Positions 12,412-31,478 of a stretch of 64,000 bases of DNA are shown one piece after another. Origin of the DNA: Scandinavium goeteborgense (GTDB lineage: Bacteria; Pseudomonadota; Gammaproteobacteria; Enterobacterales; Enterobacteriaceae); the NCBI RefSeq assembly GCF_003935895.2, contig NZ_CP054057.1:1-64000 (forward strand), written 5' to 3'. The first letter of the stretch is position 1, and each line of letters begins with the position of its first letter. Both the position numbers and the translations under genes were made by a program. The notes under the pieces were generated by a model, which worked only from the letters and a program-made list of their open reading frames with translations, ran no database searches and was not told where the DNA came from.

Positions 12412-12467
12412 TCATTTTCAATGATGCACCTGTGTTGTTCTGAGGTGATCATGTAAGCACACCCGTT

Positions 12468-13993: not shown

Positions 13994-14554
13994 ATGAAGT
14001 TCGCTAAACTTGCCCTGGTTGTATGTATGAGTGTTGCTGGTATGAATTCTGCGCTGGCAGCAGGTCCTAGTGGCGATGCACCAACAGGTGTTGATCAGGG
14101 ACACGGTCAAATTACTTTCACCGGTTCAATCATCGATGCGCCGTGCTCTATCTCTCCTGAGTCACAGGATCAGACAGTTCCACTGGGCGAAATTTCTTCT
14201 GCAGCCCTCAAAGATGGTGGCACGTCCACTGCAGTACCGTTTACGATTGACCTTGATAACTGCGACACGTCTGGTTTAACGGATAAGACAGTAAGCGTTA
14301 CTTTCACCGGTGCTGCTTCCGATGTTGGAACTAATTTACTTGCGCTGAATGGCGACGCTAAAGGTGCAGGTATCGGTATTAAAGATGTAGCCGGCAATGA
14401 TATTGTGTTAGGTACCGCTACGGACCCACAGAACGTAAATGACAGTAATAACCAGCTGCATTTCTCCGCTTTCTTGCAGGGTGATAATGCTTCAGGTGCA
14501 ATCATTCCTGGTGGCTTTACTTCTGTAGCACAATTTACTTTGGCTTATAATTAA
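13994..14554 (+). CDS. Major fimbrial subunit (type 1/P-like pilin)
   Basis: A 186-residue pilin precursor. Signal peptide MKFAKLALVVCMSVAGMNSALA precedes AGPSG. The mature protein has the chaperone-usher pilin features: GQITFTGSIIDAPCSI with the first cysteine of the disulfide, FTIDLDNC with the second, and a C-terminal beta strand ending QFTLAYN for donor-strand exchange with the chaperone. The ATG at 13994 is preferred over one at 13982 because it starts the signal peptide. It is followed by a weak hairpin and eight co-directional fimbrial genes, which fits the strongly expressed shaft subunit. The organisation recalls the MR/P and P-fimbrial (pi) clade. Confidence 0.88.
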   Translation: MKFAKLALVVCMSVAGMNSALAAGPSGDAPTGVDQGHGQITFTGSIIDAPCSISPESQDQTVPLGEISSAALKDGGTSTAVPFTIDLDNCDTSGLTDKTVSVTFTGAASDVGTNLLALNGDAKGAGIGIKDVAGNDIVLGTATDPQNVNDSNNQLHFSAFLQGDNASGAIIPGGFTSVAQFTLAYN

Positions 14555-14573
14555 TTTTATTGATCTAGAGCTG

Positions 14574-14589
14574 GAGCCAAGGATGGCTC
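14574..14589 (+). terminator. Weak intercistronic hairpin after major pilin
   Basis: GAGCC at 14574-14578 pairs with GGCTC at 14585-14589 around a 6-nt loop, without a T tract. In related fimbrial operons such hairpins raise major-pilin mRNA relative to downstream genes. Only a 5-bp stem, so weak support. Confidence 0.3.
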
Positions 14590-14622
14590 TAATATTCAAA
14601 CACCTTGAGAGGAAAAGGTGCG

Positions 14623-15147
14623 ATGCGTCGGAAAATAATTCCGCTAATTTTGTTACTTGGGTTGTCATCCCTTGCCAACGCTAAAGATTCTGGGCATGGG
14701 ACTGTTAATATGGAAGGCTCAATTATCGACTCGGCATGTGCAGTGGATACGAAGAGTAGATATCAGGTTGTTGATATGCACTCTCAGCCTCTGAGCGAAA
14801 TGATTAGTGATGGCAGAGCATATGACTACCCATTTTCAATACATCTAATTAATTGCTCACTCGTACACGCGGGGCATCAAACAGAAAGCTGGCAAGCCTT
14901 CCAGGTTACATTCGATGGAAAAGTAGATGGAGATAATTTTGGCTTGGATGGTGACGCAGAAGGAATCTCATTGCAGATACATGATGATGGCGGGAATGTC
15001 TCACATCCCGGCATCGCTATGCCTGCCAGGAGTTTAAAACCAGGTGATATGACATTAAATTATACAATGAGTCTGATTAGTAATGACAAAGGTCTAAAAT
15101 CAGGAAGTTTTCATACTACGGTTCGATATAAATTAGACTACTACTGA
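14623..15147 (+). CDS. Minor fimbrial subunit (PapH/MrpB-like position)
   Basis: A 174-residue pilin-domain protein with signal peptide MRRKIIPLILLLGLSSLANA, first cysteine in SIIDSACAVD, second in FSIHLINCSL, and C-terminal strand FHTTVRYKLDYY. Its place between the major pilin and the usher is that of the anchor/terminator subunit (PapH, MrpB). The ATG at 14623 is chosen because AGAGGAAAAGG lies just upstream. Confidence 0.75.
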   Translation: MRRKIIPLILLLGLSSLANAKDSGHGTVNMEGSIIDSACAVDTKSRYQVVDMHSQPLSEMISDGRAYDYPFSIHLINCSLVHAGHQTESWQAFQVTFDGKVDGDNFGLDGDAEGISLQIHDDGGNVSHPGIAMPARSLKPGDMTLNYTMSLISNDKGLKSGSFHTTVRYKLDYY

Positions 15148-15178
15148 TTATAAAAGTTGTTAATTCAAGGTGTGTGAA

Positions 15179-17767
15179 GTGAAAAACAATAACCAAAAAT
15201 CAAGACCATTGCCATTTAGAGAACGCATTGCTTCTGCAACGCTATCGATTGTATTAAGTGGGGTCAGTATTTGCTCACATGCCGAAGAAATTCAATTTAA
15301 TACAGATGTCTTAGATGTCAAAGATAGAAGTAACATAGATATCGGCAGATTCTCTAAGTCTGGCTACATTATGCCTGGCGCTTACGATTTTAGTGTAAGT
15401 GTTAATACACAGACTTTACCCGAAGAGTACACTGTTAATTTCATCGACGATCCTGATTCAAAAAATAGCAGCTACGCATGTCTGACGGCTGAAATCGTTG
15501 ATCAACTAGGCTTAAAAGATAGTGCAAAAGAAAAGTTGATTTGGAAAGATAAAGGGCAATGCCTTGATATCAACAGCCTTCCAGGTCTGACTGCAAAAGG
15601 TGATTTAGGATCTTCAACGCTTATAATAAATATTCCGCAAGCTTATATGGAATATACCGCGCCGGATTGGGATCCTCCATCTCGTTGGGATCATGGGATA
15701 AACGGTTTTTTGTTTGATTATAATGTCAATGCAACGTCTAATTGGCAGCATAGCGATTATAATCAAGATAAAGATTATTCCCTTAGTGGTAATGGCACAA
15801 CTGGGGTAAATTTAGGAAATTGGCGCTTCCGTGCCGATTGGCAGGCGAATTTAGATCATGCAACCGGGTCTGGTGACAATAGTCAAAAAAAGGTAGATAT
15901 CAGTCGAGCCTACGCATATAGACCGATTCCTTCAATAGGCGCTAAACTAACCGTAGGTGATGATTACTTTGACTCTGACGTATTCGATAGCTTCCGTTTT
16001 GTAGGGGCAAGCCTCGATACTGACGATAATATGTTACCTCCCAACTTACGTGGCTATGCACCAGAGATTACCGGTGTCGCGAGAACAAATGCAAAAGTTA
16101 CTGTCAGCCAACAAGGCAGGGTACTCTATGATACACAGGTGGCGGCAGGGCCATTCAAAATTCAAGATATTAGTGATTCCGTATCTGGGAGCTTAGATGT
16201 ACGCGTTGAAGAGCAAGACGGTTCGGTACAAACATATCAAGTTAATACGGCAAGCGTTCCCTATCTAACACGACCAGGGAGTATCCGTTACAAGCTTGCT
16301 GTAGGTAAGCCTCGCGAATATGACTATGGCTCGTCAGACACAGAGAATCAAGACGGTACTGATAATTACAATGACAGCTATGATTATAGTGATTATGGCC
16401 CTTCATTCGGCTCCGGTGAGATTTCTTGGGGTATAAGTAACGGCTGGTCTCTTTATGGAGGCGCTATTGGCGGCAAAGACTATAATTCCCTTTCGCTTGG
16501 GGTTGGTCGTGATATGCTGGCATTGGGTGCTGTGGCTCTTGATTTTACAGGTTCTCGAGCCTTGGTCCCTCAAAGTGATAAAAGCCTCACCGGTGGGTCA
16601 GTGCGCGTAAGCTATTCTAAAAACTTTGATGAGTACGATAGCCAAGTGACTTTTGCAGGCTACCGTTTCTCTCAAAAAGATTTTATGACAATGAGTGAGT
16701 ACCTCGATGCAATCCATGGTGATGATACACAAGAAAATAGCAAACAAAAATACACAATAACGTTCAATAAGCAATTCCGTAAGTCAGGAATGAGCATTTA
16801 TGCTAATTTTAGTCATGAAACTTATTGGAATAGCCCAGTAAATAACTACTACAACGTCTCACTTTCGCGTACGTTTGACGCGTTTGGTTTTCATAACATA
16901 AGTCTTTCTTTGACAGCATTTAAAAACAAATATAACAATACAAATGATAATGGGGCCTACTTGGGCCTTACACTACCCATTGGCGATAACGATAGCGTGA
17001 GTTTTAACTCATCGCTCAGTAACAATGAGCTAAGCAATAGTGCTAGCTATTATAATACTATTGACGATCATAATAGCTATCAGTTAAGTGCCGGGGAGTC
17101 CAGCGACGGACCAACAGCAAGCGGCTATTATACCTATTTAGGAGATGCGGCTGAAGTTGATAGTAATATGAGCTATCAGGCAAATCAGTTCACTTCCGTA
17201 GGTGTGAGTATAAAAGGTGGGTTTACAGCGACATCAAAAGGCGCTGCATTACATCGTACGAACTCAATGGGTGAGGCCAGGTTGATGGTTGATGTTGGAG
17301 ATACCGCTAATGTACCTGTTCAGGGATACGGTGCAACTGTACGTACAAATAGCATGGGTGTAGCGGTGATTTCAGATGTAAATAGTTATTACCGTAGTAA
17401 AGCAAATATCGATATTAATAATCTCGATAACAACGTTGATGTCACAAATTCCGTTGTACAAGCAACACTGACTGAAGGTGCAATTGGTTATCGTAAGTTC
17501 GCCGTGATTACCGGCGAAAAAGCAATGGCAACAATACGGCTTGCAGATGGCTCAGCACCTCCATTTGGGGCATTAATAACAAATAAAGATAAGCAACAAA
17601 CCGGAATCGTTGGCGATGATGGGACTGTTTATTTAAGTGGTATTAATGCCAACGAAGAAATGAATATAGAGTGGGATGGTAAAAAACAATGTTCGATTAT
17701 ACTACCGAGTGCGCTGCCTAAGGATTTAACATTGTCAGGAATCAACCTGCTGCTTCCATGCAAATAA
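15179..17767 (+). CDS. Fimbrial outer-membrane usher
   Basis: An 862-residue PapC/FimD-family usher that forms the outer-membrane pore and assembles subunits. It has a signal peptide ending SHA before EEIQFNTDVLD, then the N-terminal chaperone-binding domain (IDIGRFSKSGYIMPGAYDFSV) and 24-strand barrel region with SYDYSDYGPSFGSGEISWGI. The plug (PPNLRGYAPEITGVARTNAKV) lies inside it, and the C-terminal domains end in a cysteine pair (KKQCSIILP ... LLLPCK). A GTG at 15179 with AAGG upstream is taken as start; an in-frame GTG at 15170 is possible. Length is normal for the family. Confidence 0.9.
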   Translation: MKNNNQKSRPLPFRERIASATLSIVLSGVSICSHAEEIQFNTDVLDVKDRSNIDIGRFSKSGYIMPGAYDFSVSVNTQTLPEEYTVNFIDDPDSKNSSYACLTAEIVDQLGLKDSAKEKLIWKDKGQCLDINSLPGLTAKGDLGSSTLIINIPQAYMEYTAPDWDPPSRWDHGINGFLFDYNVNATSNWQHSDYNQDKDYSLSGNGTTGVNLGNWRFRADWQANLDHATGSGDNSQKKVDISRAYAYRPIPSIGAKLTVGDDYFDSDVFDSFRFVGASLDTDDNMLPPNLRGYAPEITGVARTNAKVTVSQQGRVLYDTQVAAGPFKIQDISDSVSGSLDVRVEEQDGSVQTYQVNTASVPYLTRPGSIRYKLAVGKPREYDYGSSDTENQDGTDNYNDSYDYSDYGPSFGSGEISWGISNGWSLYGGAIGGKDYNSLSLGVGRDMLALGAVALDFTGSRALVPQSDKSLTGGSVRVSYSKNFDEYDSQVTFAGYRFSQKDFMTMSEYLDAIHGDDTQENSKQKYTITFNKQFRKSGMSIYANFSHETYWNSPVNNYYNVSLSRTFDAFGFHNISLSLTAFKNKYNNTNDNGAYLGLTLPIGDNDSVSFNSSLSNNELSNSASYYNTIDDHNSYQLSAGESSDGPTASGYYTYLGDAAEVDSNMSYQANQFTSVGVSIKGGFTATSKGAALHRTNSMGEARLMVDVGDTANVPVQGYGATVRTNSMGVAVISDVNSYYRSKANIDINNLDNNVDVTNSVVQATLTEGAIGYRKFAVITGEKAMATIRLADGSAPPFGALITNKDKQQTGIVGDDGTVYLSGINANEEMNIEWDGKKQCSIILPSALPKDLTLSGINLLLPCK

Positions 17768-17849
17768 TTTATTAAATGAAACCATTATTTATATCGATGA
17801 GCAAATATATATGAGTACGAATAAGTCTTTCACCCTGTTAGGGGGACGC

Positions 17850-18584
17850 ATGAACAAAAAACATTTAGCTATCATTGGTGGTTTAGCTGGAATGCTATAC
17901 ACACAATTCGCCTCAGCAGCTATAGCTCTTGATCGAACTCGTATTATCTACGATGGTGCAAATCGCTCTGTTTCTGTGGCGGTTTCAAATGAGAATAAGG
18001 ACTTGCCATATTTAGCCCAGTCATGGCTGGAAGATGATAAGGGTAATAAAATATCTACTCCGATTGCCGCACTACCCCCAATTCAGCGCATTGATGCCGG
18101 TGGTAAGAGCCAGATTAAGCTTCAGGCGCTTCCTGAGGTGAACTCTCTTCCTCAGGATAGAGAGTCGGTGTATTATTTTAACCTTCGTGAAATTCCACCA
18201 AGGAGTAACAAACCGAATACGTTACAAATTGCACTCCAAACACGTATCAAATTGTTCTATCGCCCGAAAGCAATTGCTGTTAAACAATCAGATGCACCAT
18301 GGCAGGAAAAACTAACATTGTCTTATGCAGGTGGCAAAGCTGTAGCTAAAAATCCAACCGCATATTACGTAACATTAATTGATGTTAAAAAGAATGGTAA
18401 GACAATCGAAGGGTTTCAGCCAATGATGGTTCCACCGAAAGGGGAAGCAACCATTCCAGGAAATAGCAGTGATTTGGGAAATGCACCAGTATTAACATAT
18501 GTTAATGATTTTGGTGGGCGACCAACAATGAAGCTTCAGTGTAATGCCGGGCAATGTCATGTCGTGGAAAGCACTAATAATTAA
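17850..18584 (+). CDS. Periplasmic fimbrial chaperone (PapD-like)
   Basis: A 244-residue chaperone: signal peptide MNKKHLAIIGGLAGMLYTQFASA, then an Ig-like N domain with IALDRTRIIYDGANRSVSVAVSN and the signature YYFNLREIPP near 115, and a second Ig domain. The C-terminus has a cysteine pair (LQCNAGQC) as in PapD-type chaperones. The ATG at 17850 has GGGGG 4 nt upstream; the upstream ATG at 17811 would place extra residues before the signal peptide. It delivers subunits to the usher by donor-strand complementation. Confidence 0.9.
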   Translation: MNKKHLAIIGGLAGMLYTQFASAAIALDRTRIIYDGANRSVSVAVSNENKDLPYLAQSWLEDDKGNKISTPIAALPPIQRIDAGGKSQIKLQALPEVNSLPQDRESVYYFNLREIPPRSNKPNTLQIALQTRIKLFYRPKAIAVKQSDAPWQEKLTLSYAGGKAVAKNPTAYYVTLIDVKKNGKTIEGFQPMMVPPKGEATIPGNSSDLGNAPVLTYVNDFGGRPTMKLQCNAGQCHVVESTNN

Positions 18585-18639
18585 GTTTGTAGGCACTCTT
18601 GAAAGATAGAAATTTGAATATAACTCTCCGGTGAATTAA

Positions 18640-19230
18640 ATGCTAAAAACACTGCTATCTTTCTCTGTTGCTTTCTCCCTCTCATTATCGGCCTACGCTA
18701 ACCCGCCGGCCGATAACTGGGATGTAGATGGTGAGCATGGTGAAATTTATGTCACAGGGCAAATGACTGAAGGTGCTTGCCAACTTGATATGGGATCTGC
18801 GCTACAAGAAATTTCATTAGGTGACGTTTCTACGCAACAATTAAAAAATATTGGCGAGAGGTCAGCTCCAGTGACTTTCCAACTACGCCTGCGCAATTGT
18901 GTTAGGGTGCATTCTTCTCAAACGAATGAGCGCACGGACAGTAAAGCATGGAGTGAAGGCCAGCCAGTAATTTCAGTAACGTTTCTCGCGCCTGCAGATG
19001 CAGATAATCCCCAATTAGTCAAAGTTCAAGGGAAATCTATCTCTGGTGTAGGGTTGCGTATTACTGATGAACTTCACCGAGATATTCAGTTGGGAAGCAG
19101 GAGTCAACCAATATTTTTAACTCCTAGAAATGACACCTTAACATACTATGTTTCTCCTGAAAGAACGCAGGCACCGCTTAACGCAGATGCGTACTCCGCT
19201 ACTGTAAATTTTAGACTCAATTATGACTAG
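18640..19230 (+). CDS. Minor fimbrial subunit (MrpE-like position)
   Basis: A 196-residue pilin-like protein with signal peptide ending AYA, first cysteine in MTEGACQLDM, second in LRLRNCVRV, and C-terminal strand ATVNFRLNYD. It resembles the 14623-15147 product (long insert after the second cysteine). It lies directly after the chaperone, 55 nt downstream, so it is part of the same transcript. Role in the shaft or anchor is unresolved. Confidence 0.75.
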   Translation: MLKTLLSFSVAFSLSLSAYANPPADNWDVDGEHGEIYVTGQMTEGACQLDMGSALQEISLGDVSTQQLKNIGERSAPVTFQLRLRNCVRVHSSQTNERTDSKAWSEGQPVISVTFLAPADADNPQLVKVQGKSISGVGLRITDELHRDIQLGSRSQPIFLTPRNDTLTYYVSPERTQAPLNADAYSATVNFRLNYD

Positions 19231-19238
19231 GCTTAAGC

Positions 19239-19739
19239 ATGAGTGTATTATGCAGATATATAAAACTAATCAGTGTCATTTGTGTTCTTATATCATTTGA
19301 TATTAGTACGGCGGTGGCTGGTTCGACATCGTCTACCGCTTATATAAAAGGTACAGTGAGGGCTTTAACCTGTACTATTGCAGACATAAATGTTGACTTC
19401 GGAAATGTTACTACCACGCAGATAGACGGCAATTCATATAAGATTCAGACGATTCACCCAAATATAACATGCGAGGATCTCGATTCTAACAGTCTGGCGT
19501 TTGCGATTAGTGGTACTACAGCAAGCTTCGGAAGTGGGCTTTTGGCGACTTCTGTCCCTGGTTTAGGTGTGCAGTTTAAATCTAATGAGGGTAATATACC
19601 GTTGAATAGTGGTAAAATTGACTTTGATTACACATCATCAGTACCAGCTATTCAGCTTGTGTTAGCCAAAGACTCCTCTGTTAATTTGTCGGGCCAGGAT
19701 TTTACAGCAGCTGCAACATTAAGTGTCGGCTATAACTGA
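19239..19739 (+). CDS. Minor fimbrial subunit (PapF/MrpF-like), paralogue 1
   Basis: A 166-residue small pilin with signal peptide ending AVA, first cysteine in RALTCTIADINVDFGNV, second in HPNITCEDL, and C-terminal strand AAATLSVGYN. It is 8 nt after the previous gene. It shares the pattern VDFG...ID(G)..Y with the next gene, so the two are tandem paralogues, as adaptor subunits of fimbrial tips often are. Confidence 0.78.
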   Translation: MSVLCRYIKLISVICVLISFDISTAVAGSTSSTAYIKGTVRALTCTIADINVDFGNVTTTQIDGNSYKIQTIHPNITCEDLDSNSLAFAISGTTASFGSGLLATSVPGLGVQFKSNEGNIPLNSGKIDFDYTSSVPAIQLVLAKDSSVNLSGQDFTAAATLSVGYN

Positions 19740-19754
19740 TTAAAGGAGAATACC

Positions 19755-20255
19755 ATGCGCTTCTTACCACTTGTCTCCGGTGTTTGTATTTTTATCTCTA
19801 TCGCATCGACATGTTCTTATGCCGTAGATAACGAAGCTAAGATTAGTATTAAAGGTACTTTAACCGAACCTCCGCCCTGTACCATAAGCGATGGTTCGGC
19901 GATAGATGTCGATTTTGGTAGTAATGTCGGTATTGACCGTATCGATGGTGTTAATTATATGCGACCAGTTAACTATACAATAGTCTGCAATCCTAACCCT
20001 GAAAATCTGGGGCTCGGTTTAACCTTTATTGGTACAGCGTCAAGTTTTAATACTTCCGCAGTTCAAACGGATGTGAGTGGATTGGGGATTGAGCTATTAC
20101 AGGGAGGGGTACCATTTGAAATGAATAAACGAATAACAATAGACTTGAACTCTCCTCCAGTATTGCAAGCTGTCCCAGTTAAAGACCCTTCAACTGGTGA
20201 TTTACCCGAGGGAGCATTCTCAGCGACTGCGACTTTACTGGCAAATTATGAATAA
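19755..20255 (+). CDS. Minor fimbrial subunit (PapF/MrpF-like), paralogue 2
   Basis: A 166-residue pilin with signal peptide ending SYA, PPPCTISDGSAIDVDFGSNV, second cysteine in YTIVCNPNP and C-terminal ATATLLANYE. An AAAGGAG stands before the ATG. Probably a tip-fibrillum adaptor; which paralogue is nearer the tip cannot be told from sequence. Confidence 0.78.
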   Translation: MRFLPLVSGVCIFISIASTCSYAVDNEAKISIKGTLTEPPPCTISDGSAIDVDFGSNVGIDRIDGVNYMRPVNYTIVCNPNPENLGLGLTFIGTASSFNTSAVQTDVSGLGIELLQGGVPFEMNKRITIDLNSPPVLQAVPVKDPSTGDLPEGAFSATATLLANYE

Positions 20256-20267
20256 GAGTATCATTTC

Positions 20268-20831
20268 ATGAAATTAAAATTTTCACTCTTGTCCCTTACT
20301 ACTGGAGCAATGGCTCTCATTTTCAGTAATTTTGCAAGCGCAGCTACAGGCGGGACAGCAATGAACTTTCACGGCACATTAGTGAATGAACCTTGCACAG
20401 TTCAACCCGGTGACGAAAATATTACCTTAAATTTTGGTACAGTTATCGATAAAGGTCTATATCAATATCAAAAGACCAATAGTCAACCCTTTAGCATCCA
20501 CTTGGTTGACTGTGCTATTAGTAGCTGGGCGGGGGACGGTACGGTAACCGTTAAGTTTTCAGGCCCAGCCAGCACTGAACTTCCGGGTTACTTAGCTGTG
20601 ACAGATGAAGCCACCGGTAGCACTGATATGGGGATCGCTATCGGCATCCAAACATCAGATGGGACGCTTTTACCTTTAGATCAAACTACTACCCCGATTC
20701 TATTACGTGACGGTAGTGATGCATTAAACTTTATGGCGTTTGTTGAAGGTGAACCAAGTGCATTGCAAAATGAGTCTATAAAACGTGGCAGCTTTAGTGC
20801 CGTAGCGACATTTTATCTTGAGTATCAATAA
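20268..20831 (+). CDS. Minor fimbrial subunit (MrpG-like position)
   Basis: A 187-residue pilin-domain protein with signal peptide ending ASA, first cysteine in LVNEPCTVQPG, second in HLVDCAIS, and C-terminal strand SAVATFYLEYQ. It starts 12 nt after the preceding gene and is the last typical pilin before the tip protein. Confidence 0.78.
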   Translation: MKLKFSLLSLTTGAMALIFSNFASAATGGTAMNFHGTLVNEPCTVQPGDENITLNFGTVIDKGLYQYQKTNSQPFSIHLVDCAISSWAGDGTVTVKFSGPASTELPGYLAVTDEATGSTDMGIAIGIQTSDGTLLPLDQTTTPILLRDGSDALNFMAFVEGEPSALQNESIKRGSFSAVATFYLEYQ

Positions 20832-20878
20832 AATTAATTAATCGGCTTTATTTTCATGAATAATTTAATGGTGACACT

Positions 20879-21652
20879 TTGAAATTCCCTATTTTTATTA
20901 AGGGAGCTATTTTTTTGCTCCTAACATCGTTGACGAGCTGCGCATTTGCCAGTGTGTCAGGTAGTGCAAAAGATTCGCATGGTGATATAATAAACTGGAC
21001 CTTTTCTGATTCAAGTACCGTTGGGAGAGCGAATGTTAGTGGAAGCTGCACCTATGAATATGCATTCACTTCCCTAACAGGTTCTAGCAACACCAGTTGT
21101 GGTGTGCAGTTATGCGCCCCTAGTCTTAACAATTGTGATTCTGCTAACTCTATATTGGGCTATTATCCCCAAGGGCAAGCAGTAAAACAGGGAACTCGAG
21201 TTACTTTTTCTGGTACAGTTGACTGTAGCGAACCTGGTGTTAATACATTGCGTTGGACATTGACTAGTACGAAAGCCGAATTTGGTCCTACCAATTTTAT
21301 TTGTGGCCAAGGGGGCGTGGGTTCTACAACTTCTTGCCATATAACGGCACCAACAATAAATTACCCCAGCATGTCGACATCAGAATGGGATGGTAATACT
21401 GCCCAAGGAGAGGTACCTTGGTCTTGTAGTTCTACGGCCAGTATTACTTTTTCTGTTAACACGGCACAAGTTACAGCTCTAGGCGCTAAAGAAAGTGTAA
21501 GCTTTCACAATTCTTCCGGGGGAGAAGTGGGCAGCATAACGATCACTGGACATTCAAGTGGAAGTACAATTTTATATTCAAAACTTTCTGGCACTCCTAC
21601 CGCGGATGGTGATTTCCAGACAAACCATGTTATAACTGCAAACTTCAACTGA
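20879..21652 (+). CDS. Probable fimbrial tip adhesin, cysteine-rich
   Basis: A 257-residue exported protein at the end of the operon, where P/MR/P-like operons encode the adhesin. Signal peptide MKFPIFIKGAIFLLLTSL...FA; the mature part has eight cysteines (in SGSCTY, SCGVQLC, NNCDS, VDCSE, FICGQ, SCHIT, WSCSS). Two-domain length fits an N-terminal receptor-binding domain plus a C-terminal pilin-like domain ending HVITANFN. The start must be the TTG at 20879: the frame upstream closes with TAA and has no ATG or GTG. I do not recognise the binding domain, so the receptor is unknown. Confidence 0.65.
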   Translation: MKFPIFIKGAIFLLLTSLTSCAFASVSGSAKDSHGDIINWTFSDSSTVGRANVSGSCTYEYAFTSLTGSSNTSCGVQLCAPSLNNCDSANSILGYYPQGQAVKQGTRVTFSGTVDCSEPGVNTLRWTLTSTKAEFGPTNFICGQGGVGSTTSCHITAPTINYPSMSTSEWDGNTAQGEVPWSCSSTASITFSVNTAQVTALGAKESVSFHNSSGGEVGSITITGHSSGSTILYSKLSGTPTADGDFQTNHVITANFN

Positions 21653-23895: not shown

Positions 23896-23907
23896 TATTC
23901 TGATTCT

Positions 23908-24255
23908 ATGAAATGTATGATTAAAAAATCTCGCTTAGAGGCTATGACCGGCGGCTGGTTCGTGGGGGCATTTTCACCTGCTGCCTACGGTACCAGCGAT
24001 GTTGAGGTAGCAGTACAATCTTTCGCTGCGGGATATGTCGGTGCTGTTCATCACCACAAAGTAGCTACTGAAATTACACTTCTGATTTCCGGCCGTGCGC
24101 TCATGGCTGGAGAATTGTTGGTTGCTGGAGACATATTGACGCTTTTACCCGGCGTAGCCTCATCCTTTGAAGCCCTGGAAGATTGTACTACCGTAGTGGT
24201 TAAGCATCCTGGTGCACTGAATGACAAGTATATCGATGGGAATGCGGGATGTTGA
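23908..24255 (+). CDS. Small cupin-domain protein
   Basis: A 115-residue cupin-like protein: GAVHHHKVATEITLLISGRA matches the first metal-binding cupin motif and GELLVAGDILTLLPGVASSF the second. It lacks the length of RmlC-type epimerases. Its stop overlaps the next ATG by 7 nt. In sugar clusters such small cupins act as isomerases or accessory proteins; the reaction is unknown. Confidence 0.65.
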   Translation: MKCMIKKSRLEAMTGGWFVGAFSPAAYGTSDVEVAVQSFAAGYVGAVHHHKVATEITLLISGRALMAGELLVAGDILTLLPGVASSFEALEDCTTVVVKHPGALNDKYIDGNAGC

Positions 24256-25019
24256 ATATTGTAATCCCAATGGCAGGTCGAGGCAGCCGTTTTAGTCAGG
24301 CAGGTTTTACTGATCCCAAGCCATTTATCCCTGTAGAAGGTATTCCGATGATCGAATTGGTTATTAATAATTTGCGACCGGAAATGCCCCATAGATTTAT
24401 ATTTGTCTGCCAACAGGCACATTTAGTGCGCTATGATTTTCAACGTCGGCTTTCTCTTCTTGCTCCGGGAAGCAAAATTATCGCCTTATCAGACGTCACC
24501 GCCGGGGCTGCATGTACTGTGCTTGCTGCGGCAGATTTCATTGATAATGATGAACCTTTGATGATTGCAAATTCTGACCAGTGGGTTGATGTGGATATTA
24601 ACGATTACTTGGCAGAGATGAATGCCAGCGATCTCGATGGTCTAATTATGACCATGAAATCAAGTGATCCGAAATGGTCGTATGCGCAATCTAATGCTGA
24701 AGGATGGGTGCATCGTGTTGTAGAAAAGCAGGTAGTCTCTGATGAGGCCACTGTTGGGATATATAATTTCCGCCGAGGCAGTGATTTTTGTCGTTTGGCC
24801 AGAGCAATGATTACCCGAAACGATCGAAGCCAAGGGGAATTTTACGTCGCTCCTGTTTATACCGATTTGTGCCGTGAAGGGAAATACCGAATCGGTGTTT
24901 ATAATATTGGTAGGGATGGCATGGGTATGCACGGATTAGGAACACCAAAGGACTTATCTGTCTTTTTGGAAAGCTCTGTACTGACGTCAGCTTTGTTGAC
25001 TAGCCGAGGGGCTGCATGA
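24249..25019 (+). CDS. Sugar/polyol-phosphate nucleotidyltransferase
   Basis: A 256-residue NTP_transferase-fold enzyme. The nucleotide-binding loop IPMAGRGSRFSQAGF is at residues 6-20, followed by the lysine in DPKPFIPVEG and a metal-binding NSDQWVDVD near 110-117. Such enzymes make the NDP-activated donor for a glycan. The activated substrate cannot be read from sequence; the HAD phosphatase and GDPD-like gene in the same operon hint at an unusual phosphorylated precursor. Confidence 0.75.
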   Translation: MLNIVIPMAGRGSRFSQAGFTDPKPFIPVEGIPMIELVINNLRPEMPHRFIFVCQQAHLVRYDFQRRLSLLAPGSKIIALSDVTAGAACTVLAAADFIDNDEPLMIANSDQWVDVDINDYLAEMNASDLDGLIMTMKSSDPKWSYAQSNAEGWVHRVVEKQVVSDEATVGIYNFRRGSDFCRLARAMITRNDRSQGEFYVAPVYTDLCREGKYRIGVYNIGRDGMGMHGLGTPKDLSVFLESSVLTSALLTSRGAA

Positions 25020-26725
25020 ATATTATGGCCCTGTCCCATCACCGTTCACTTAATCAACCCGTAGTCAAGCAACCTTTTGATTCTTCAATATTAGATTCTG
25101 GGTACGGGGATTGTGCTCGTGCGATTACTTTTGCGAAGACTTCTATACGGTCACGACGGATGACCGCGCTTGATAGAATTCAGGGTATATCATCTGGAGA
25201 TATACTCTTGTCCTACTTTGATCACACACCACTTTACGCTTTGCTCCTGTGGGATGTTACACATAGTCTTGCTCTCGATGATAAGATATATTTTCATGTA
25301 TCCGATAAAGCAGCAGATTTACTGATTCGAACGTATTATCGAGATTCATTCCGAGAGGAAGTTCTTGAACGCGGATGTGGTGCCGTGCGGGTTTTTGTAA
25401 AAACCGCCCCATTATCCGCTGAACAAGAAAGAGGGCTTAATGAATGGAGTTTTTGCATACCTACTGGTGGAGATATTATTGCACTCAACACCTGTGTCTC
25501 ACGTATTTTAGAGTTGAATGTCCCGCGATATGAAATAATTCTTTGTGGAGACCCAGGTGAAGGATTTAAGTTTAAGGATCAAGTAAGTATTGTTGGCGAA
25601 GATATACCAGCGTCACCAATCCATATCACCCGGAAGAAGAACGTATTGGCCAAAGCAGCTCGATACCCGAATCTGTGTATTCTCCATGATAGGGTTTTAC
25701 TGCCGGAGAATTTCATGCAATCCGTTCAGCGCTTCGGTGATGATTATCCCTTCACTGCCTTTCCATCGTACTGGTTCGCTGACCGGTGGTTTGCCGTTCC
25801 GCGGCGTTACTCCGATTTTTGTGCCGTGAAGCAGGTTGCAGAATGTCTTCGTAGCGATAAAAGACCTGATCGAAATTCGCTGCCAGAATTTGAGTCTATG
25901 GATTTTTTCACACAACATCCTTGCCGCGCGTCCTTTGGTCAGGACTATTTAACTGGTAGTTTATATTTGTGTAAGCGCAGTGTTTGGCAACACTTACCAC
26001 AAAATGAAGCGCTGTATTGGAATGATTATGAAGATGTGGAGCATGGAATACGAGCTGCACTTGCAGGTATCCCATCCAGAATTAATTCTTACACTTTGAC
26101 GCGAAGCCTGACTTATCGAAGCGTTTTTCATATGTTTGGAGTGACCAGAGGGGTCACTGCTGGGGGAGATATTCATTTAGAGCGAGCTCCTATGGAGTGG
26201 TGGGGGGGGCGGCGAAGGCCCTCCTTAAATATCAATGAGCAGGAAGCTATTCGTCGGTTAAAAGCTTTCGCTTTGCGCTATACCGGCAGCGATGTTCTTG
26301 TCCGTCAACTTGAGGGTAAACCATTTACGGGCATTCGGCGCTATCGTCTGATCGCTCAGCTGTTATGGCAAACGCGAGGGGATCTTCAGAACCTGGTAAA
26401 CGACTGGTATCGTGAGGTTTTGTGTGAGTCTCCTATGCCTCTTGATGTCGAATATCTACAGGCAATGCTGGATAGTTCTTATACTATATCGACGAAGAAG
26501 CTTGGTTGGTTAAGACATGATTCATTGACGCGACAGCTTTATAACAACCCATTTAGTTCACCCTTTATCTCTGATTCGCCTGATGAAATGCCACGCAAGA
26601 AATTGCGTTTGTTCTTAGGCAGTTTTATTGGAGCCATATGGTTGAAATATTTCAGTCGACAAGTTGCTTTCAATTCCTCTGTAATTGAACTTTGGCAAAC
26701 CTTACGTGGTCTTCACGAGCATTAA
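25016..26725 (+). CDS. Large glycosyltransferase-like protein (GT-A type)
   Basis: A 569-residue cytoplasmic protein overlapping the previous gene by 4 nt. Around residues 160-340 it looks like a GT-A glycosyltransferase: EIILCGDPGEGF, then KAARYPNLCILHDRVLLPEN with the aspartate-containing metal site, and YWNDYEDVEHGIRAALAG. The N-terminal 150 and C-terminal 200 residues match nothing I recognise. Probably transfers a sugar in assembly of the exported glycan. Confidence 0.6.
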   Translation: MNIMALSHHRSLNQPVVKQPFDSSILDSGYGDCARAITFAKTSIRSRRMTALDRIQGISSGDILLSYFDHTPLYALLLWDVTHSLALDDKIYFHVSDKAADLLIRTYYRDSFREEVLERGCGAVRVFVKTAPLSAEQERGLNEWSFCIPTGGDIIALNTCVSRILELNVPRYEIILCGDPGEGFKFKDQVSIVGEDIPASPIHITRKKNVLAKAARYPNLCILHDRVLLPENFMQSVQRFGDDYPFTAFPSYWFADRWFAVPRRYSDFCAVKQVAECLRSDKRPDRNSLPEFESMDFFTQHPCRASFGQDYLTGSLYLCKRSVWQHLPQNEALYWNDYEDVEHGIRAALAGIPSRINSYTLTRSLTYRSVFHMFGVTRGVTAGGDIHLERAPMEWWGGRRRPSLNINEQEAIRRLKAFALRYTGSDVLVRQLEGKPFTGIRRYRLIAQLLWQTRGDLQNLVNDWYREVLCESPMPLDVEYLQAMLDSSYTISTKKLGWLRHDSLTRQLYNNPFSSPFISDSPDEMPRKKLRLFLGSFIGAIWLKYFSRQVAFNSSVIELWQTLRGLHEH

Positions 26726-26728
26726 TAT

Positions 26729-27211
26729 ATGAAAAATATAAGTGTCATTAGCTCTACAGAGGAGCAAGTTTTGTCATGGACTGCTGGGATTGAGGGGGTT
26801 TTGCCGACCTTTCCAGATTTCAATATGTCTAGCTGTTTGTTAGGTTTTTTGAATGATGACAATATAGTACAAATGCAGTGTGTTCGTAATTTTAAGAATG
26901 CTGATGATTTAGTGGTGATCCTTCATCAAAATAATATACAAGAAAAACCAGAGGTCATATGGGCTGCATTCCAATTTTATCTTAAAAGTGCACTTAAGTC
27001 CAGGCACCGTATTTGGATTGTATTAAGTGGCGGAGCAGATTTTCTTCGGCAGCGGGCCTGGAATAATTGGCTTAATTTTATTCCGGAAAATAAGTTGTCA
27101 ATGTGGCGACTCGAACTCCATATCTTAAGTAGCTCAATTTTTCGTTGTAATGGATTTCTTACCAGAAATCTTCGTCGAGTTGCTCGCTTAATGGTGAAAA
27201 AGAGAAAATGA
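26729..27211 (+). CDS. Unknown protein of glycan operon
   Basis: A 160-residue protein with no recognised domain, no signal peptide and no membrane segment; the C-terminus is basic (RRVARLMVKKRK). It is 3 nt after the preceding gene and overlaps the next by 4 nt, so it is co-translated with the glycan genes. No function is assigned. Confidence 0.6.
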   Translation: MKNISVISSTEEQVLSWTAGIEGVLPTFPDFNMSSCLLGFLNDDNIVQMQCVRNFKNADDLVVILHQNNIQEKPEVIWAAFQFYLKSALKSRHRIWIVLSGGADFLRQRAWNNWLNFIPENKLSMWRLELHILSSSIFRCNGFLTRNLRRVARLMVKKRK

Positions 27212-28221
27212 AAGATTTGAGCATTATCTTTCAGGGGCCCGTTGAAATGAAAAATGGTTCATTCAACCAATTTCTGGATTATTTAGCCCGTACTCGTCGG
27301 ACATTTCCCGCATCAGAAATAATACTGTCGACCTGGGAAATGTTACCCATTGAAAAAGATATGATCCTTAATCATCTGTCTCTTCTGGGAATTCGAATTA
27401 TCCATAGTTCAGATCCTGGCCCACTCATCGGAAAAGATGAAGCTGGAGAGTACCTATGTAATATAAATCGATTGCTGGTCTCCTCACATGCAGGATTGGC
27501 CGCCGCGACACGCCCTTTGGCGTTAAAACTACGAACGGATACTTATATTTCTTCCCGTAAACTGATCAATTTGTTAGAAAAACACGTATTGATTGAGAAT
27601 GAACTGAAAAGAGATTTAGACTACCAAGTATTTTCGAAGAGAGTGATTAATGCCTCTTGGTTTTCCCGAGATGCACGGGGCAGTTTACCTTATCTTTTTC
27701 ATCCTGGTGACATCCTTTTAGCAGGTAAAACAGAAGATGTGAGGTTATTCTTCAGTGCCCCACTGGCAACAAAAGCGTTGTTCAAACCCGTATCCGCACC
27801 TGGATTGTGGAGTGCCTGGCGCTATGTTCCTGAACAATGGTTTTGGGTTCATGCCATTGGTAAGGTGACAAATCGCAAAGTCTATGAGGGCTCCCTTCGG
27901 AGTTCGCCTAAATTGGTTACACTGTCTGAAAAATATTATTTGGCTAATTTTATATCATACTCCCCAAGTAAATTGGGGTTTCACTGGCCAAAATATTGGA
28001 AGCGGTACCCGTTTCGAGGACTGTTCAGTTTGTATACTCAACGACGTTGGCTCAGATTATATAAATACTATCATGGTGGTGGCCCTAACTTTTCCGTAGG
28101 CAAATGGCTCGATTGGGCTGTTACGAAATTATGGCGTACTGGTTATTTGATACGTGCAATGCTACAAAGAAATAAATTAATACGTTGTTTAGCTTTGACA
28201 TTATTCCTACATAGAAAGTAG
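27208..28221 (+). CDS. WavE-like lipopolysaccharide synthesis protein
   Basis: A 337-residue protein beginning LSIIFQGPVEMKNGSF with SEIILSTWE after it, the pattern of the WavE family first described from Vibrio cholerae core-oligosaccharide genes. Also LALKLRTDTYISSRKL and LFHPGDILLAGKTEDV, which fit a GT-A-type glycosyltransferase fold. Likely a second glycosyltransferase of the operon; donor and acceptor unknown. Confidence 0.7.
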   Translation: MKDLSIIFQGPVEMKNGSFNQFLDYLARTRRTFPASEIILSTWEMLPIEKDMILNHLSLLGIRIIHSSDPGPLIGKDEAGEYLCNINRLLVSSHAGLAAATRPLALKLRTDTYISSRKLINLLEKHVLIENELKRDLDYQVFSKRVINASWFSRDARGSLPYLFHPGDILLAGKTEDVRLFFSAPLATKALFKPVSAPGLWSAWRYVPEQWFWVHAIGKVTNRKVYEGSLRSSPKLVTLSEKYYLANFISYSPSKLGFHWPKYWKRYPFRGLFSLYTQRRWLRLYKYYHGGGPNFSVGKWLDWAVTKLWRTGYLIRAMLQRNKLIRCLALTLFLHRK

Positions 28222-28232
28222 CAGAAATCCTA

Positions 28233-29048
28233 ATGAAAAAATTCATTTCTCAACCAAAAAGTACCTCGACATTGTATGAGTTATGGCTTGTGCGCAATCT
28301 TGTTAAGCAACTAATTGTCCGTGATCTGACTGTGCGATACCGCCAGACAATATTAGGGTGGTTATGGGCGGTCGTTAATCCAGCTATAAATCTAGCTATG
28401 TATTTTGTTGTGTTTGGTGTCATGGTACGGTTCAATCCGCCTGAGTATAATGTGCCATATGCATGGGTTCTTCTTTGTGGGTTGGTGCTGTGGATGCTAT
28501 TTTCATCAACAGTTAATAGCGTTGGTGATTCATTGTTAAATAATGTTCATCTGATTAAAAAGATCTATTTCCCTCGCATTGGTTTGGCGCTTGCAGGCCT
28601 TGGGGTTAGTAGTGTTGATTTTATTATTTCTCTTTTGATTTTGTGTGCTTTATTACTGGGTAATGATATTTTATCTATAAGTAAAATTCCTCTTATGCTG
28701 CTCTGTGCTGGAGTAACGGCTTTGACGGCGTGGGGGCTCGGATGTGTTGTCGCGATCCTTCGTTTACGTTTTCGTGATTTTCGTCATATCATACCTTTGT
28801 TCATGCAAGCACTATTTTATGCAACTCCAGTTGTCTGGACTCCGGGGCTATTACCAAGTGGCTTAAAGCAACTTGTTTATCTCAACCCTTTAAGTAGTCT
28901 TATTGGTCTGTTTCGTTATGCCCTACTGGCTGGCCCATTACCATCTGCTTCCATGTTATTAGCAAATATGCTTGGTTGTGCAGTAAGTGTCATTGGTGGC
29001 TATCTATTTTTTATCTACTATGAAGCTAAGGTTACAGACCAAGAATGA
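28233..29048 (+). CDS. ABC-2 polysaccharide export permease
   Basis: A 271-residue inner-membrane protein with six hydrophobic segments, of the Wzm/KpsM/TagG family. The conserved N-terminal amphipathic segment LVKQLIVRDLTVRYRQT followed by LGWLWAVVNP is typical of O-antigen and capsule exporters, as is the LRFRDFRHIIPLFMQALFYATPV block. It pairs with the ATPase whose gene overlaps by 4 nt. It would flip lipid-linked glycan to the periplasm. Confidence 0.88.
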   Translation: MKKFISQPKSTSTLYELWLVRNLVKQLIVRDLTVRYRQTILGWLWAVVNPAINLAMYFVVFGVMVRFNPPEYNVPYAWVLLCGLVLWMLFSSTVNSVGDSLLNNVHLIKKIYFPRIGLALAGLGVSSVDFIISLLILCALLLGNDILSISKIPLMLLCAGVTALTAWGLGCVVAILRLRFRDFRHIIPLFMQALFYATPVVWTPGLLPSGLKQLVYLNPLSSLIGLFRYALLAGPLPSASMLLANMLGCAVSVIGGYLFFIYYEAKVTDQE

Positions 29049-29758
29049 TAAAGTTCGAGAATGTTAGTAAAACATATCCTGGATACAGTCAGGCAGGGAA
29101 AACTTTGCGTACTGCATTTGCATTTCGCAAACCAACTGAATCGTTGCCATTTGTTGCATTGTCATCGGTCAATTTTCATATTCAACCGGGTGAGTCATTG
29201 GGGATAATAGGTCGTAATGGTGCTGGCAAGTCCACACTCTTAAAACTGTTGACCAGAATAACGCGGCCTTCAGCAGGCAGTATTATTGTTAATGGTACTT
29301 TATCCTCGCTACTTGAAGTTGGTGCTGGGTTTCATCACGACTTAAATGGTTTGGAAAATATTTATTTAGCAGGCGCGATATTGGGCATGTCGCAAAGATC
29401 CATTAAACTCAAAATTGATACTATTATCGATTTTTCCGAACTAGGTGATGCTTTATTTCAGCCAGTAAGAACTTATTCTTCTGGAATGTTTTTACGACTC
29501 GCTTTTTCAGTCGGCATTCATCTTGATAGCGATATTCTCATCATTGATGAAGCACTTACGGTAGGTGACAGGGATTTTCAAACTCGCTGTTATAGCAGAA
29601 TAAAGGATTTCATTAAGGCTGGGGGAACTTTGGTGTTAGTTAGCCATGATGAGACGCAACTCCGTCAGATATGTTCGCGCGGCCTTGTTCTTGAGCAAGG
29701 CAGTCTTGTCTACGATGGGGAGTTGTCAGGTGCCCTCGAATACTATTTCTCACTGTAA
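29045..29758 (+). CDS. ABC polysaccharide export ATPase
   Basis: A 237-residue ATPase with Walker A GRNGAGKST (about 57-65), signature YSSGMFLRLAF near 143 (the variant typical of Wzt/KpsT/TagH exporters), Walker B ILIIDEAL near 163 and switch histidine in LVSHDE. It lacks the C-terminal carbohydrate-binding domain of long Wzt proteins, so it is of the short KpsT/short-Wzt type, which does not need a terminal cap for export. Confidence 0.9.
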   Translation: MIKFENVSKTYPGYSQAGKTLRTAFAFRKPTESLPFVALSSVNFHIQPGESLGIIGRNGAGKSTLLKLLTRITRPSAGSIIVNGTLSSLLEVGAGFHHDLNGLENIYLAGAILGMSQRSIKLKIDTIIDFSELGDALFQPVRTYSSGMFLRLAFSVGIHLDSDILIIDEALTVGDRDFQTRCYSRIKDFIKAGGTLVLVSHDETQLRQICSRGLVLEQGSLVYDGELSGALEYYFSL

Positions 29759-29786
29759 CTAACAACATTTTATTAAGGGGGGTTTT

Positions 29787-30428
29787 ATGCAAATTTTGGC
29801 TCATCGAGGAAGCTGGCAAACGCCGAACCAAAGAAATTCTCGTCAAGCATTGAATGCTGCCCTGCAAGCAGGATGGGGGGTGGAAACTGACATCAGAGAT
29901 CATAATGGGACCTTGGTTATAAGCCATGATATGGCAACGAATGATTCAATGCCATTGAGCAGTTTGCTCGAGGATTATCTACGCATAGGTAGCCAAGGTA
30001 CGTTAGCACTGAATATAAAATCCGATGGTTTAGCAAATGAGCTAGAGGCTGTTTTACTCAACGCTGGAATTGAACACTATTTTTGTTTTGATATGTCGGT
30101 CCCTGACACTCTGGCATATATCAATATGAAAATGAAGGTTGCTGCGCGACTCAGCGAGTATGAACCTGAAGGCATTCTGAGTGCTCTATCTTCGTTTCTC
30201 TGGATAGATGGATTTCATAATATTTCTGTAAATGCAGATCAACTTCATCAGTGGCTATACGAAGAAAAAAAGCAGGTGTGTATTGTTTCACCAGAACTTC
30301 ATGGTCGCAGTCCTAAGTTATTGTGGGCAATGTTACGGGATCTCCCTAAAGAATTAAGGTTGCATCCATATTTAATGATTTGTACGGATTTGCCAGCTTT
30401 GGCACAAAAGGAACTATGCTATGAGTAA
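29787..30428 (+). CDS. GDPD-like phosphodiesterase-fold protein
   Basis: A 213-residue protein with the glycerophosphodiester phosphodiesterase signature: AHRGSWQTPNQRNS at the N-terminus (catalytic-type His and Arg), GVETDIRDHNGTLVISHDM near 37-57 (metal-binding Glu, Asp and second His). It is shorter than typical GDPD enzymes and has QRNS where PENS is usual. No signal peptide, so cytoplasmic. It overlaps the HAD gene by 8 nt. GDPD-like genes occur in some surface-glycan clusters; the reaction here is unknown. Confidence 0.72.
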   Translation: MQILAHRGSWQTPNQRNSRQALNAALQAGWGVETDIRDHNGTLVISHDMATNDSMPLSSLLEDYLRIGSQGTLALNIKSDGLANELEAVLLNAGIEHYFCFDMSVPDTLAYINMKMKVAARLSEYEPEGILSALSSFLWIDGFHNISVNADQLHQWLYEEKKQVCIVSPELHGRSPKLLWAMLRDLPKELRLHPYLMICTDLPALAQKELCYE

Positions 30429-31056
30429 AATTCGAGCAGTGATATTTGATATGGATGGTGTCTTGATTGATGCTAAAGAATGGCATTTTTCTGCCATGAA
30501 TCAAGCATTGTCATTGTTTGGTTTGACTATTAGTGAGCACGATCATAAAGAAGAATTCGACGGGTTGCCAACATGGGAAAAACTCAATCGCCTATCCGAA
30601 CGTTATGGTTTGCCTTATTCTCTCCATCATTTTATTAATGAAATGAAACAGATTTATACTAAGCAACTTATTTACCAAAATTGCTGGCCGGTTTTCCATC
30701 ATCAACATGCCCTGTCGCAGCTGGTAAAGGAAGGGTATCGGATTGCTGTTGCATCAAACTCAATTTCTGAGAGCATTGAGACCATGCTTGGTCGAGCCAA
30801 TCTCTTACCGTACTTAGATTTTTATTTATCTAATGAGGACGTTACGCGTGGTAAACCTGATCCGGAAATTTACCTAAAGGCAATGCAGCGCCTTGAACTG
30901 AAACCTTCAGAATGCGTCGTTGTGGAGGACAATCCACATGGGATTGCTGCTGCGAATGCTGCAGGGGCTCATGTTCTTTGTGTGGAAGACCCTTCCGATG
31001 TTACCTTTGATCGAATTAAGAAGTTTATCACCTTCTGTGAGAATACGCACAAATGA
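30421..31056 (+). CDS. HAD-family phosphatase or phosphomutase
   Basis: A 211-residue HAD hydrolase of the beta-phosphoglucomutase type: nucleophile motif IFDMDGVLIDA at 8-18, motif II SNSIS, lysine in GKPDPEIY, and acidic motif VVEDNPHGIAAANAAG. It probably dephosphorylates or isomerises a sugar or polyol phosphate before or after the nucleotidyltransferase step. It overlaps both neighbouring genes. Confidence 0.82.
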   Translation: MSKIRAVIFDMDGVLIDAKEWHFSAMNQALSLFGLTISEHDHKEEFDGLPTWEKLNRLSERYGLPYSLHHFINEMKQIYTKQLIYQNCWPVFHHQHALSQLVKEGYRIAVASNSISESIETMLGRANLLPYLDFYLSNEDVTRGKPDPEIYLKAMQRLELKPSECVVVEDNPHGIAAANAAGAHVLCVEDPSDVTFDRIKKFITFCENTHK

Positions 31057-31478
31057 AACCTATACTTATACTGACTTCATCCCAACCTCCGCAGGAAAAA
31101 TTGTCGGAATGGTATACTATATGGTGCATTCCTAAAACTTTTAAAGTAAGTGAGGCTGACAATGTAGATCAAGTAATTACGTTGCCTGGAAATAATATTT
31201 CTTCATTATGCGTCAGTTTGTTTGCTATTGAATATATTGATTTATCTTTACCAGTGGCATTATGCACGGAAAATTCGTTTGTAAATAAGTTGTCTATGAT
31301 TCGCTCAAAATATGTTAATGCCTACCTGAATAATACTGATTCCGGAGTGATTTGGTTTCCTATGGCTCGACAGCTACGTTTTTGTGGACAAAGTGCTATT
31401 AAATTTTTCAATCCCTCTCAAGGACATGCCACTCTGAACGATTTATGGAATCAAGCTATGTTAGTAGAGCTCCAGTGA
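31053..31478 (+). CDS. Unknown protein, last gene of glycan operon
   Basis: A 141-residue soluble protein overlapping the HAD gene by 4 nt (ATGA). No family recognised and no signal peptide. The overlap shows it belongs to the glycan operon. Confidence 0.6.
   Translation: MKPILILTSSQPPQEKLSEWYTIWCIPKTFKVSEADNVDQVITLPGNNISSLCVSLFAIEYIDLSLPVALCTENSFVNKLSMIRSKYVNAYLNNTDSGVIWFPMARQLRFCGQSAIKFFNPSQGHATLNDLWNQAMLVELQ

Follow-up and report, generated by a model that had tools for sequence, protein, structure and literature searches.

Predicted PglL-like O-oligosaccharyltransferases linked to chaperone-usher fimbrial operons in the Enterobacteriaceae, and a putative fimbrial glycosylation locus in Scandinavium goeteborgense

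The first 64,000 nucleotides of contig NZ_CP054057.1 of Scandinavium goeteborgense (the window, meaning this whole stretch) contain a chaperone-usher fimbrial operon at 13994-21652, followed by an eleven-gene glycan operon at 22138-31478, which opens with a gene encoding a predicted PglL-like O-oligosaccharyltransferase (the ligase). Among genomes of the host's family, ligases of this kind travel with chaperone-usher fimbriae, mostly without the glycan operon. The favoured reading, given a probability of about 0.6, is that the ligase transfers a glycan produced by the ten downstream genes to the adjacent fimbria, the acceptor being its tip adhesin or at least one of its subunits; this reading is based on gene content, linkage across genomes, the residue signature of the ligase and its predicted fold. 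A preliminary description of the window had proposed a fimbrial glycosylation system, an interpretation which is partly supported here and which the survey makes considerably more likely. Searches of open-licence papers in PubMed Central (PMC), judged by the titles and abstract openings listed, brought up no paper describing linkage of a PglL-like ligase to chaperone-usher operons.

A tblastn search of plasmids with the window ligase gave 13 records, of which eight were inspected: in seven the ligase gene has fimbrial genes within 7 kb, and in the eighth they are about 11 kb off. The ligase gene and a fimbrial subunit gene are four bases apart in Klebsiella aerogenes NCTC10006, and in Pantoea agglomerans CFBP13593 the ligase gene directly follows the fimbrial operon. 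The survey used a ligase profile (A1) constructed from the window ligase, two ligases of Lelliottia and seven of the plasmid search, ten in all, which were found by similarity and whose surroundings had been inspected beforehand; the split ligase of Hafnia (L034; loci and genomes have L and G numbers) was excluded. Of the 392 genomes of the host's GTDB family which were searched, 104 show some match, and about 20 kb (less at contig ends) was taken around 64 strong matches and the window. This set contains 65 ligase loci from 56 genomes, several per genome, and includes the broken or split ligases L084, L106 and L110, as well as L111 and L112, whose frames of 464-469 aa (about 110 bits) were counted as ligases and may belong to another class. 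Two fragment rows in the strong range (G070:C1 and the second row of G750) were not counted as loci, and L062, which is beside an usher and came from another search, was excluded. The controls are 30 WaaL-like loci, drawn from the 62 rows that score 61 bits or less; their frames are of about 400-480 aa.

Of the ligase loci, 58 have flanks of 7.5 kb or more in both directions, and 50 of these show an usher gene within 7.5 kb, versus one of the 30 controls (Fisher p 6.7e-15, for loci that are not independent). When contig-truncated loci are included, 54/65 stretches contain an usher; the median gap between ligase and usher is 3.0 kb over these 54 loci, and in 45 of them both genes are on the same strand. 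Taking survey, plasmid and Lelliottia loci together, the ligase frame lies at most 300 bp from the stop of a same-strand fimbrial subunit gene in 24/73 loci, and in 16/73 it overlaps a fimbrial subunit gene or is within 30 bp of it. The PglL-type ligases of other families in the order, a weak control, show no usher beside them in any of 12 stretches, two of which are short, and such fimbriae may be rarer in those families. Conserved linkage of the two operons, whose absence the preliminary description named as a refutation, thus holds strongly for ligase and fimbria; the glycan operon is mostly absent.

The ligase shows the domains expected from the earlier assignment of this first gene to the PglL/Wzy_C membrane transferases: Wzy_C (PF04932, 78.6 bits, cut-off 31.7) and, at the C-terminus, Wzy_C_2 (PF11846, 36.2 bits, cut-off 28.5). 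An excerpt of Schulz et al. 2013 (PMC3643930) gives Q178, N180, H400, E404 and P406 of Neisseria meningitidis PglL, and also G316 and G318, as residues kept in PglL and not in WaaL. By alignment, the window ligase has equivalents of the first five (Q182, N184, H408, E412 and P414). All five are present in 58/58 usher-linked ligases, in 12/12 PglL-type ligases of other families and in 8/9 ligases without an usher (one of these nine is a truncated frame). Together they occur in none of 26 WaaL-like proteins, and singly (Q, N, H, E, P) in 1, 0, 1, 2 and 1 of them; this number is 26 because four control loci gave no ligase frame by profile. Both glycines are present in the window ligase and do not discriminate, as 26/26 WaaL-like proteins carry them. 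A quick tree places 65 enterobacterial ligases, 57 of which have an usher beside them, on a single branch, with a support of 98 in the Shimodaira-Hasegawa-like approximate likelihood ratio test; this branch is separate from the WaaL-like proteins and from the PglL of other families, and does not include L058 and L061. This tree and the usher tree described below are quick or FastTree runs without bootstrap. The AlphaFold2 model of the window ligase has a mean predicted local distance difference test (pLDDT) score of 88.5, and WaaL (7tpg) is its sole solved-structure match under E 0.001. The protein itself is not assigned to WaaL, as it has 585 aa, Wzy_C_2 and the PglL residues; the host chromosome contains a second Wzy_C gene, a frame of 423 aa, consistent with the host's own WaaL. 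One relative (P0123) is already named "PglL family O-oligosaccharyltransferase" by NCBI and, therefore, the family label is not new.

Judged from the trees, the pairing of ligase and fimbria appears to be more than mere co-descent and to involve repeated gain or loss. On the usher tree (FastTree, 88 rows), the label for a linked ligase has to change 20 times; well-supported branches force at least 13 of these changes. The linked ushers fall in more than one usher lineage. This tree includes 28 unlinked ushers, eight from 3-kb stretches, "unlinked" being decided by comparing match positions; the ligase L052 is on a 53-kb contig which also holds a PapC-type operon (L177), so its pairing with the other usher type is uncertain. 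Distances between ligases and between ushers are correlated (Mantel rho 0.64, 46 dereplicated loci, 0/5000 permutations), with host kinship uncontrolled. A second operon of G031 (L163) has the same gene order as the ligase-bearing L070 of G545, and the two major pilins share 95% identity; L163 lacks the ligase, whose place would be between the last subunit gene and the subsequent lipoprotein-like gene. From the label changes and this pair of operons, it follows that the ligase comes and goes and the fimbrial pairing persists. The small lipoprotein-like gene and a gene encoding an FKBP-type prolyl isomerase whose N-terminal part is long adjoin the ligase in L039, L054, L056, L069, L070, L076 and L110; the same pair is located behind the glycan operon in L032 (16425-18366) and directly after the fimbrial operon in L163. 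These two genes are a candidate further accessory pair.

Several findings weigh against the favoured reading. The near-identical operons L163 and L070 indicate that the ligase is dispensable for such a fimbria. Eleven survey loci lack an usher in the stretch. Three of them (L048, L092 and L109) end early at a contig edge, L060 belongs to the same plasmid as L039 and has an usher about 12 kb from the ligase, and L058 shows fimbrial genes at the edge of the stretch; the other six (L051, L067, L071, L075, L089 and L106) have more than 8.9 kb on both sides and no usher or plasmid-borne fimbriae nearby, and in the four tested the neighbours are non-fimbrial. PglL_A (PF15864) is not detected in the window ligase at E 0.01 or E 1, and for this reason the label is PglL-like and not classical PglL; among six relatives it is above the cut-off in two (L037 and L040), below it in three and absent in one. 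The residue equivalent to R224 is replaced in 11/58 usher-linked ligases. On the acceptor side, the subunits were compared with those of 20 unlinked operons for Ser/Thr content and for their richest 12-residue S/T/A/P/G window, and ligase-linked subunits show no Ser/Thr or low-complexity enrichment: the Ser+Thr fraction of the major pilin is 0.174 in linked and 0.189 in unlinked operons (p 0.04, opposite to the expected direction), and the linked set has the lower value in each of the other five comparisons (p 0.05-0.42). The subunits yielded no acceptor motif.

The ligase could instead be a general O-oligosaccharyltransferase acting on many periplasmic or outer-membrane proteins, its fimbrial neighbourhood reflecting shared regulation or transfer. 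The six loci away from ushers, with their non-fimbrial neighbours, and the lack of a special acceptor region in the subunits fit this explanation, as does the description of PglL as broad in an excerpt of a 2025 review (PMC12645811). It is nevertheless unlikely, since the 50/58 linkage, the operon-like overlap and the repeated pairing on the usher tree form the pattern of substrate-dedicated enzymes such as TfpO, TfpM and PglS. Three of the usher-less loci, L067, L071 and L075, belong to one genus and are close relatives of the usher-bearing L053; they may have lost the fimbrial operon, or the ligase may have moved. L067 also shows a nucleoside hydrolase gene upstream of the ligase.

Among the scanned ligase loci, the glycan operon is found in the window and in three others: L032 of Lelliottia, L048 at a contig end, and L068. 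L032, on a contig of 197 kb, shows a fimbrial operon (the stretch ends inside the usher gene), two tandem ligase genes and the whole glycan operon; compared with the window, the ligase is 42% identical and the 569-aa enzyme of the operon 51% identical. The tandem ligases of L032 (5424-7058 and 7164-8900) differ from each other and fall in separate tree branches. L068 (G685) keeps the gene order without the 569-aa and 160-aa genes. The 569-aa family is present in ten genomes of 392, and besides the window and L048 these correspond to eight loci (L143-L150) in which a related module stands in a stretch free of ligase and usher genes. Genes encoding Wzm/Wzt are beside the module in two of them (L146 and L150), and the module of L146 adjoins O-antigen-like genes which include, as read from translations, an initiating-sugar-transferase-like gene. 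Since the module stands alone in L143-L150, the idea of a fimbria-specific glycan operon was dropped, and the operon is likely a general polysaccharide module recruited to the window locus. The proposal that the system is self-contained therefore stands for the combination of fimbria, ligase and glycan operon, which recurs in L032 and L068, and has to be relaxed in that the ligase mostly occurs without the glycan operon and the module also occurs alone. No close DNA relatives of the ligase-glycan stretch were found in plasmids, and among Escherichia coli genomes the best 20 of 566 matches are of insertion sequence (IS) type.

The separate occurrence of the module, in one case in an O-antigen-like locus, means that lipid A-core could be the destination of its product instead. 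The plasmid would then encode an O-antigen or capsule, exported by Wzm/Wzt and joined to lipid A-core by this ligase or by the host WaaL, or released; the result would be a change of serotype and the fimbrial linkage would be incidental. Wzm/Wzt is the usual export route for O-antigens of the ATP-binding cassette (ABC) type, in agreement with this explanation. It is judged slightly less probable still than a general enzyme: the ligase has the PglL-specific residues and Wzy_C_2 and branches apart from WaaL-like proteins, the same ligase type is beside fimbriae where no such glycan operon was found, and the host has another Wzy_C gene.

The window belongs to a contig of 142,760 bases in an assembly of two contigs and 4.71 Mb, which is consistent with the contig being a plasmid. 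The fimbrial operon shows two subunit genes, the usher gene, the chaperone gene, four subunit genes and a gene encoding a 257-aa final product (Table 1). It is complete, and its gene positions agree with the preliminary description; Pfam places it in the PapC type, with genes for a PapC-like usher, a PapD-like chaperone and Fimbrial subunits adjoining one another. The usher scores 718 bits against PapC and at most 296 bits against the other listed ushers (FimD-type chains). Five subunits match Pfam Fimbrial, and the first of the operon is probably the major pilin, by its position. The 14605 product shows no Pfam match, and its score in Table 1 comes from a profile seeded with this product itself and 17 other subunits. 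The 257-aa product is an orphan, with no Pfam match and a homologue search which returns only itself; the Pantoea counterpart at its place (L033:12741-13649) has MrpH_N/MrpH_C. The gap of 485 bp between the operons, from 21652 to 22138, is as described earlier; no terminator-like site and no plus-strand promoter-like site were found in it, and the sole terminator-like match lies within the ligase gene and equals the chance rate.

Table 1. Genes of the fimbrial operon and of the glycan operon in the window.
Product	Position	Strand	Basis or remark
Fimbrial subunit, first upstream (186 aa)	13994..14554	+	Pfam Fimbrial 65.7 bits
Fimbrial subunit-like (180 aa)	14605..15147	+	143 bits with iterated subunit profile
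Outer-membrane usher, PapC type	15170..17767	+	PapC_N, Usher, PapC_C
Periplasmic chaperone	17811..18584	+	PapD_N, PapD_C
Fimbrial subunit	18640..19230	+	Pfam Fimbrial
Fimbrial subunit	19239..19739	+	Pfam Fimbrial
Fimbrial subunit	19755..20255	+	Pfam Fimbrial
Fimbrial subunit	20268..20831	+	Pfam Fimbrial
257-aa product, candidate tip adhesin	20879..21652	+	Position only
PglL-like O-oligosaccharyltransferase (585 aa), predicted	22138..23895	+	Wzy_C + Wzy_C_2, PglL-specific residues, AlphaFold2 model
115-aa product, cupin-like by eye	23908..24255	+	Conserved in L032, L048, L068
Sugar-phosphate nucleotidyltransferase	24249..25019	+	NTP_transferase; 4evw E 1.1e-16
569-aa glycosyltransferase, unnamed family, GT-A fold	25016..26725	+	Predicted fold
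160-aa product	26729..27211	+	Only chance-level Pfam match; counterpart in L032, L048
WavE-family glycosyltransferase	27208..28221	+	Pfam WavE 104.7 bits
Wzm-like exporter permease	28233..29048	+	ABC2_membrane
Wzt-like exporter ATPase (237 aa, short)	29045..29758	+	ABC_tran
Glycerophosphodiester phosphodiesterase (GDPD)-like product, weak label	29787..30428	+	PDB matches E 0.41, 0.66, residues 2-51
HAD hydrolase, beta-phosphoglucomutase-like	30421..31056	+	HAD_2; TIGR02009 134.8 bits, below cut-off 153
141-aa product, final operon gene	31053..31478	+	No Pfam match at E 1; counterpart in L032, L068

The content reported for the glycan operon is retained: eleven genes, which include those for a nucleotidyltransferase, glycosyltransferases and a HAD enzyme. 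Its "mostly overlapping" organisation amounts to six of the ten junctions, which overlap by 4-8 bp, the remaining four showing gaps of 3-28 bp. The 115-aa product matches nothing in Pfam or NCBIfam at E 0.01, and Auxin_BP appears at E 0.1 without reaching its cut-off. Nothing in Pfam matches the 569-aa product at E 0.01; its AlphaFold2 model (pLDDT 81.6) shows GlfT2 (E 6.3e-7), K4CP (chondroitin polymerase) and WrtF as the best Foldseek matches, and on this model it is predicted to be a GT-A glycosyltransferase of a family without a Pfam model. A protein search with it yielded 123 matches, among them one near-identical fragment, and the best 120 of the 123 are named hypothetical or uncharacterised in their sources. 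The ABC-2 exporter of the preliminary description is recovered as an ABC2_membrane permease and is better described, with its partner ATPase, as a Wzm/Wzt-like pair (28233 and 29045). The nearest NCBIfam models of the ATPase are teichoic-acid and galactan export ATPases, under their cut-offs, and therefore no named exporter subtype was assigned. The GDPD-like label given earlier to the 29787 product comes from the look of its sequence and the very weak PDB matches of Table 1, with no meaningful Pfam match even at E 1. Naming the sugar was tried and rejected, as the likenesses to 4evw, teichoic-acid exporters and beta-phosphoglucomutase are too distant. No initiating transferase was recognised in the window operon; the host chromosome contains two PF00953 and two PF02397 genes, candidates for glycan initiation.

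A directly repeated IS-type sequence of 211 nt (92%), at 12444-12654 and 33605-33815, flanks the fimbria-ligase-glycan block, which may have moved as a unit. The position of the block between these repeats, 21 kb apart, would also agree with chance cargo, two unrelated surface modules joined between insertion sequences on a plasmid. This is very improbable: a similar arrangement is present in G685 and in the Lelliottia contig, where the compared proteins are 42-51% identical, and the pairing of ligase and fimbria is family-wide, a conserved linkage which already largely refutes it. An 845-nt inverted repeat (90%), at 2888-3732 and 12655-13499, overlaps an IS3-type transposase; the Rfam isrN matches at 3073-3215 and 13172-13314 fall within its two copies and so resemble IS sequence more than independent small RNA genes. 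Just downstream of the glycan operon, 32140-32820 encodes a winged-helix HTH_46 product, and regulator genes are annotated near several related plasmid loci. The region 53562-58000 matches type VI secretion genes (tssK, tssC, tssL and OmpA-like) of Enterobacter plasmids (86.5%).

In the favoured reading, that of glycan transfer to the adjacent fimbria, a host chromosomal initiating transferase, of the families present on the chromosome, would start the glycan on undecaprenyl phosphate. To judge from their families, the nucleotidyltransferase, the GT-A enzyme (25016) and the WavE enzyme (27208) would build it, and the HAD and GDPD-like enzymes may supply or trim a phosphorylated precursor. The Wzm/Wzt-like pair would flip the glycan over the inner membrane, the ligase would move it to Ser/Thr of a subunit that is chaperone-bound or awaits export in the periplasm, and the usher would export the decorated subunits. 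By analogy with dedicated O-oligosaccharyltransferases known beside type IV pilin genes, the linkage found here makes the fimbria the likely acceptor. A wider proposal is tentative, and slightly less probable than its opposite: Enterobacterales chaperone-usher fimbriae would repeatedly own a dedicated subfamily of O-oligosaccharyltransferases, sugar-coated fimbriae would be widespread and unrecognised, and the plasmid would be a complete mobile kit, with fibre, glycan factory, flippase and attaching enzyme, which could hand a new host a ready-made glycosylated fimbria. The linkage clue used for type IV pilins now points at chaperone-usher fimbriae, common enterobacterial adhesins. If the favoured reading is right, receptor binding by such fimbriae, and their recognition by phages and antibodies, would be worth rechecking. 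There would then also be a specific gene for deletion, two near-identical natural operons of which one has the ligase, and O-oligosaccharyltransferases with new acceptor preferences for glycoconjugate work.

Compared with known systems, the window ligase shares with the WaaL O-antigen ligase Wzy_C, the fold (7tpg) and an arginine and a histidine (R309 and H358; 26/26 WaaL-like proteins), and differs in that the WaaL-like control frames are of about 400-480 aa, lack the PglL residues and form a separate branch. The fimbrial operon shares the usher, chaperone and subunit set of P/MR-P-type (PapC-like) fimbriae, which are not known to carry a linked ligase. An excerpt of PMC11839208 mentions a claim of carbohydrate on FimA of the E. 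coli type 1 fimbria, with no enzyme known. O-antigen or capsule loci with Wzm/Wzt, WavE, NTP-transferase, HAD and GDPD-like genes are represented by the related module of L143-L150, with Wzm/Wzt in L146 and L150; these loci differ in having no PglL-like ligase or usher in the stretch, and L146 has an initiating-transferase-like gene, whereas the window operon has none. With the general PglL of Neisseria, Vibrio, Acinetobacter and Burkholderia, the ligase shares Wzy_C and Wzy_C_2, the matches to Q178/N180/H400/E404/P406 and the WaaL-like fold predicted here; it differs in showing no PglL_A match and in that its genes are beside chaperone-usher operons. The PglL neighbours called pilin in Table 1 of PMC3643930 are type IV pilins (21 of 31), and an excerpt of that paper takes linked O-oligosaccharyltransferases as a clue to glycosylated type IV pilins; the 2025 review, in the excerpt cited above, states that PglL is not widely linked to its targets (PMC12645811). 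According to the same excerpt, the substrates of TfpO (PilO), TfpM and PglS are type IV pilins or the pilin-like ComP, and TfpO and TfpM lack Wzy_C_2 (PMC12645811). No type IV pilin family was found among the 20 products of the two operons, which places the window ligase outside this group, and its neighbour is an unrelated usher-assembled fimbria. If glycan transfer to that fimbria is the right reading, the window ligase would resemble TfpO, TfpM and PglS in being encoded side by side with its pilus substrate, with one enzyme per organelle.

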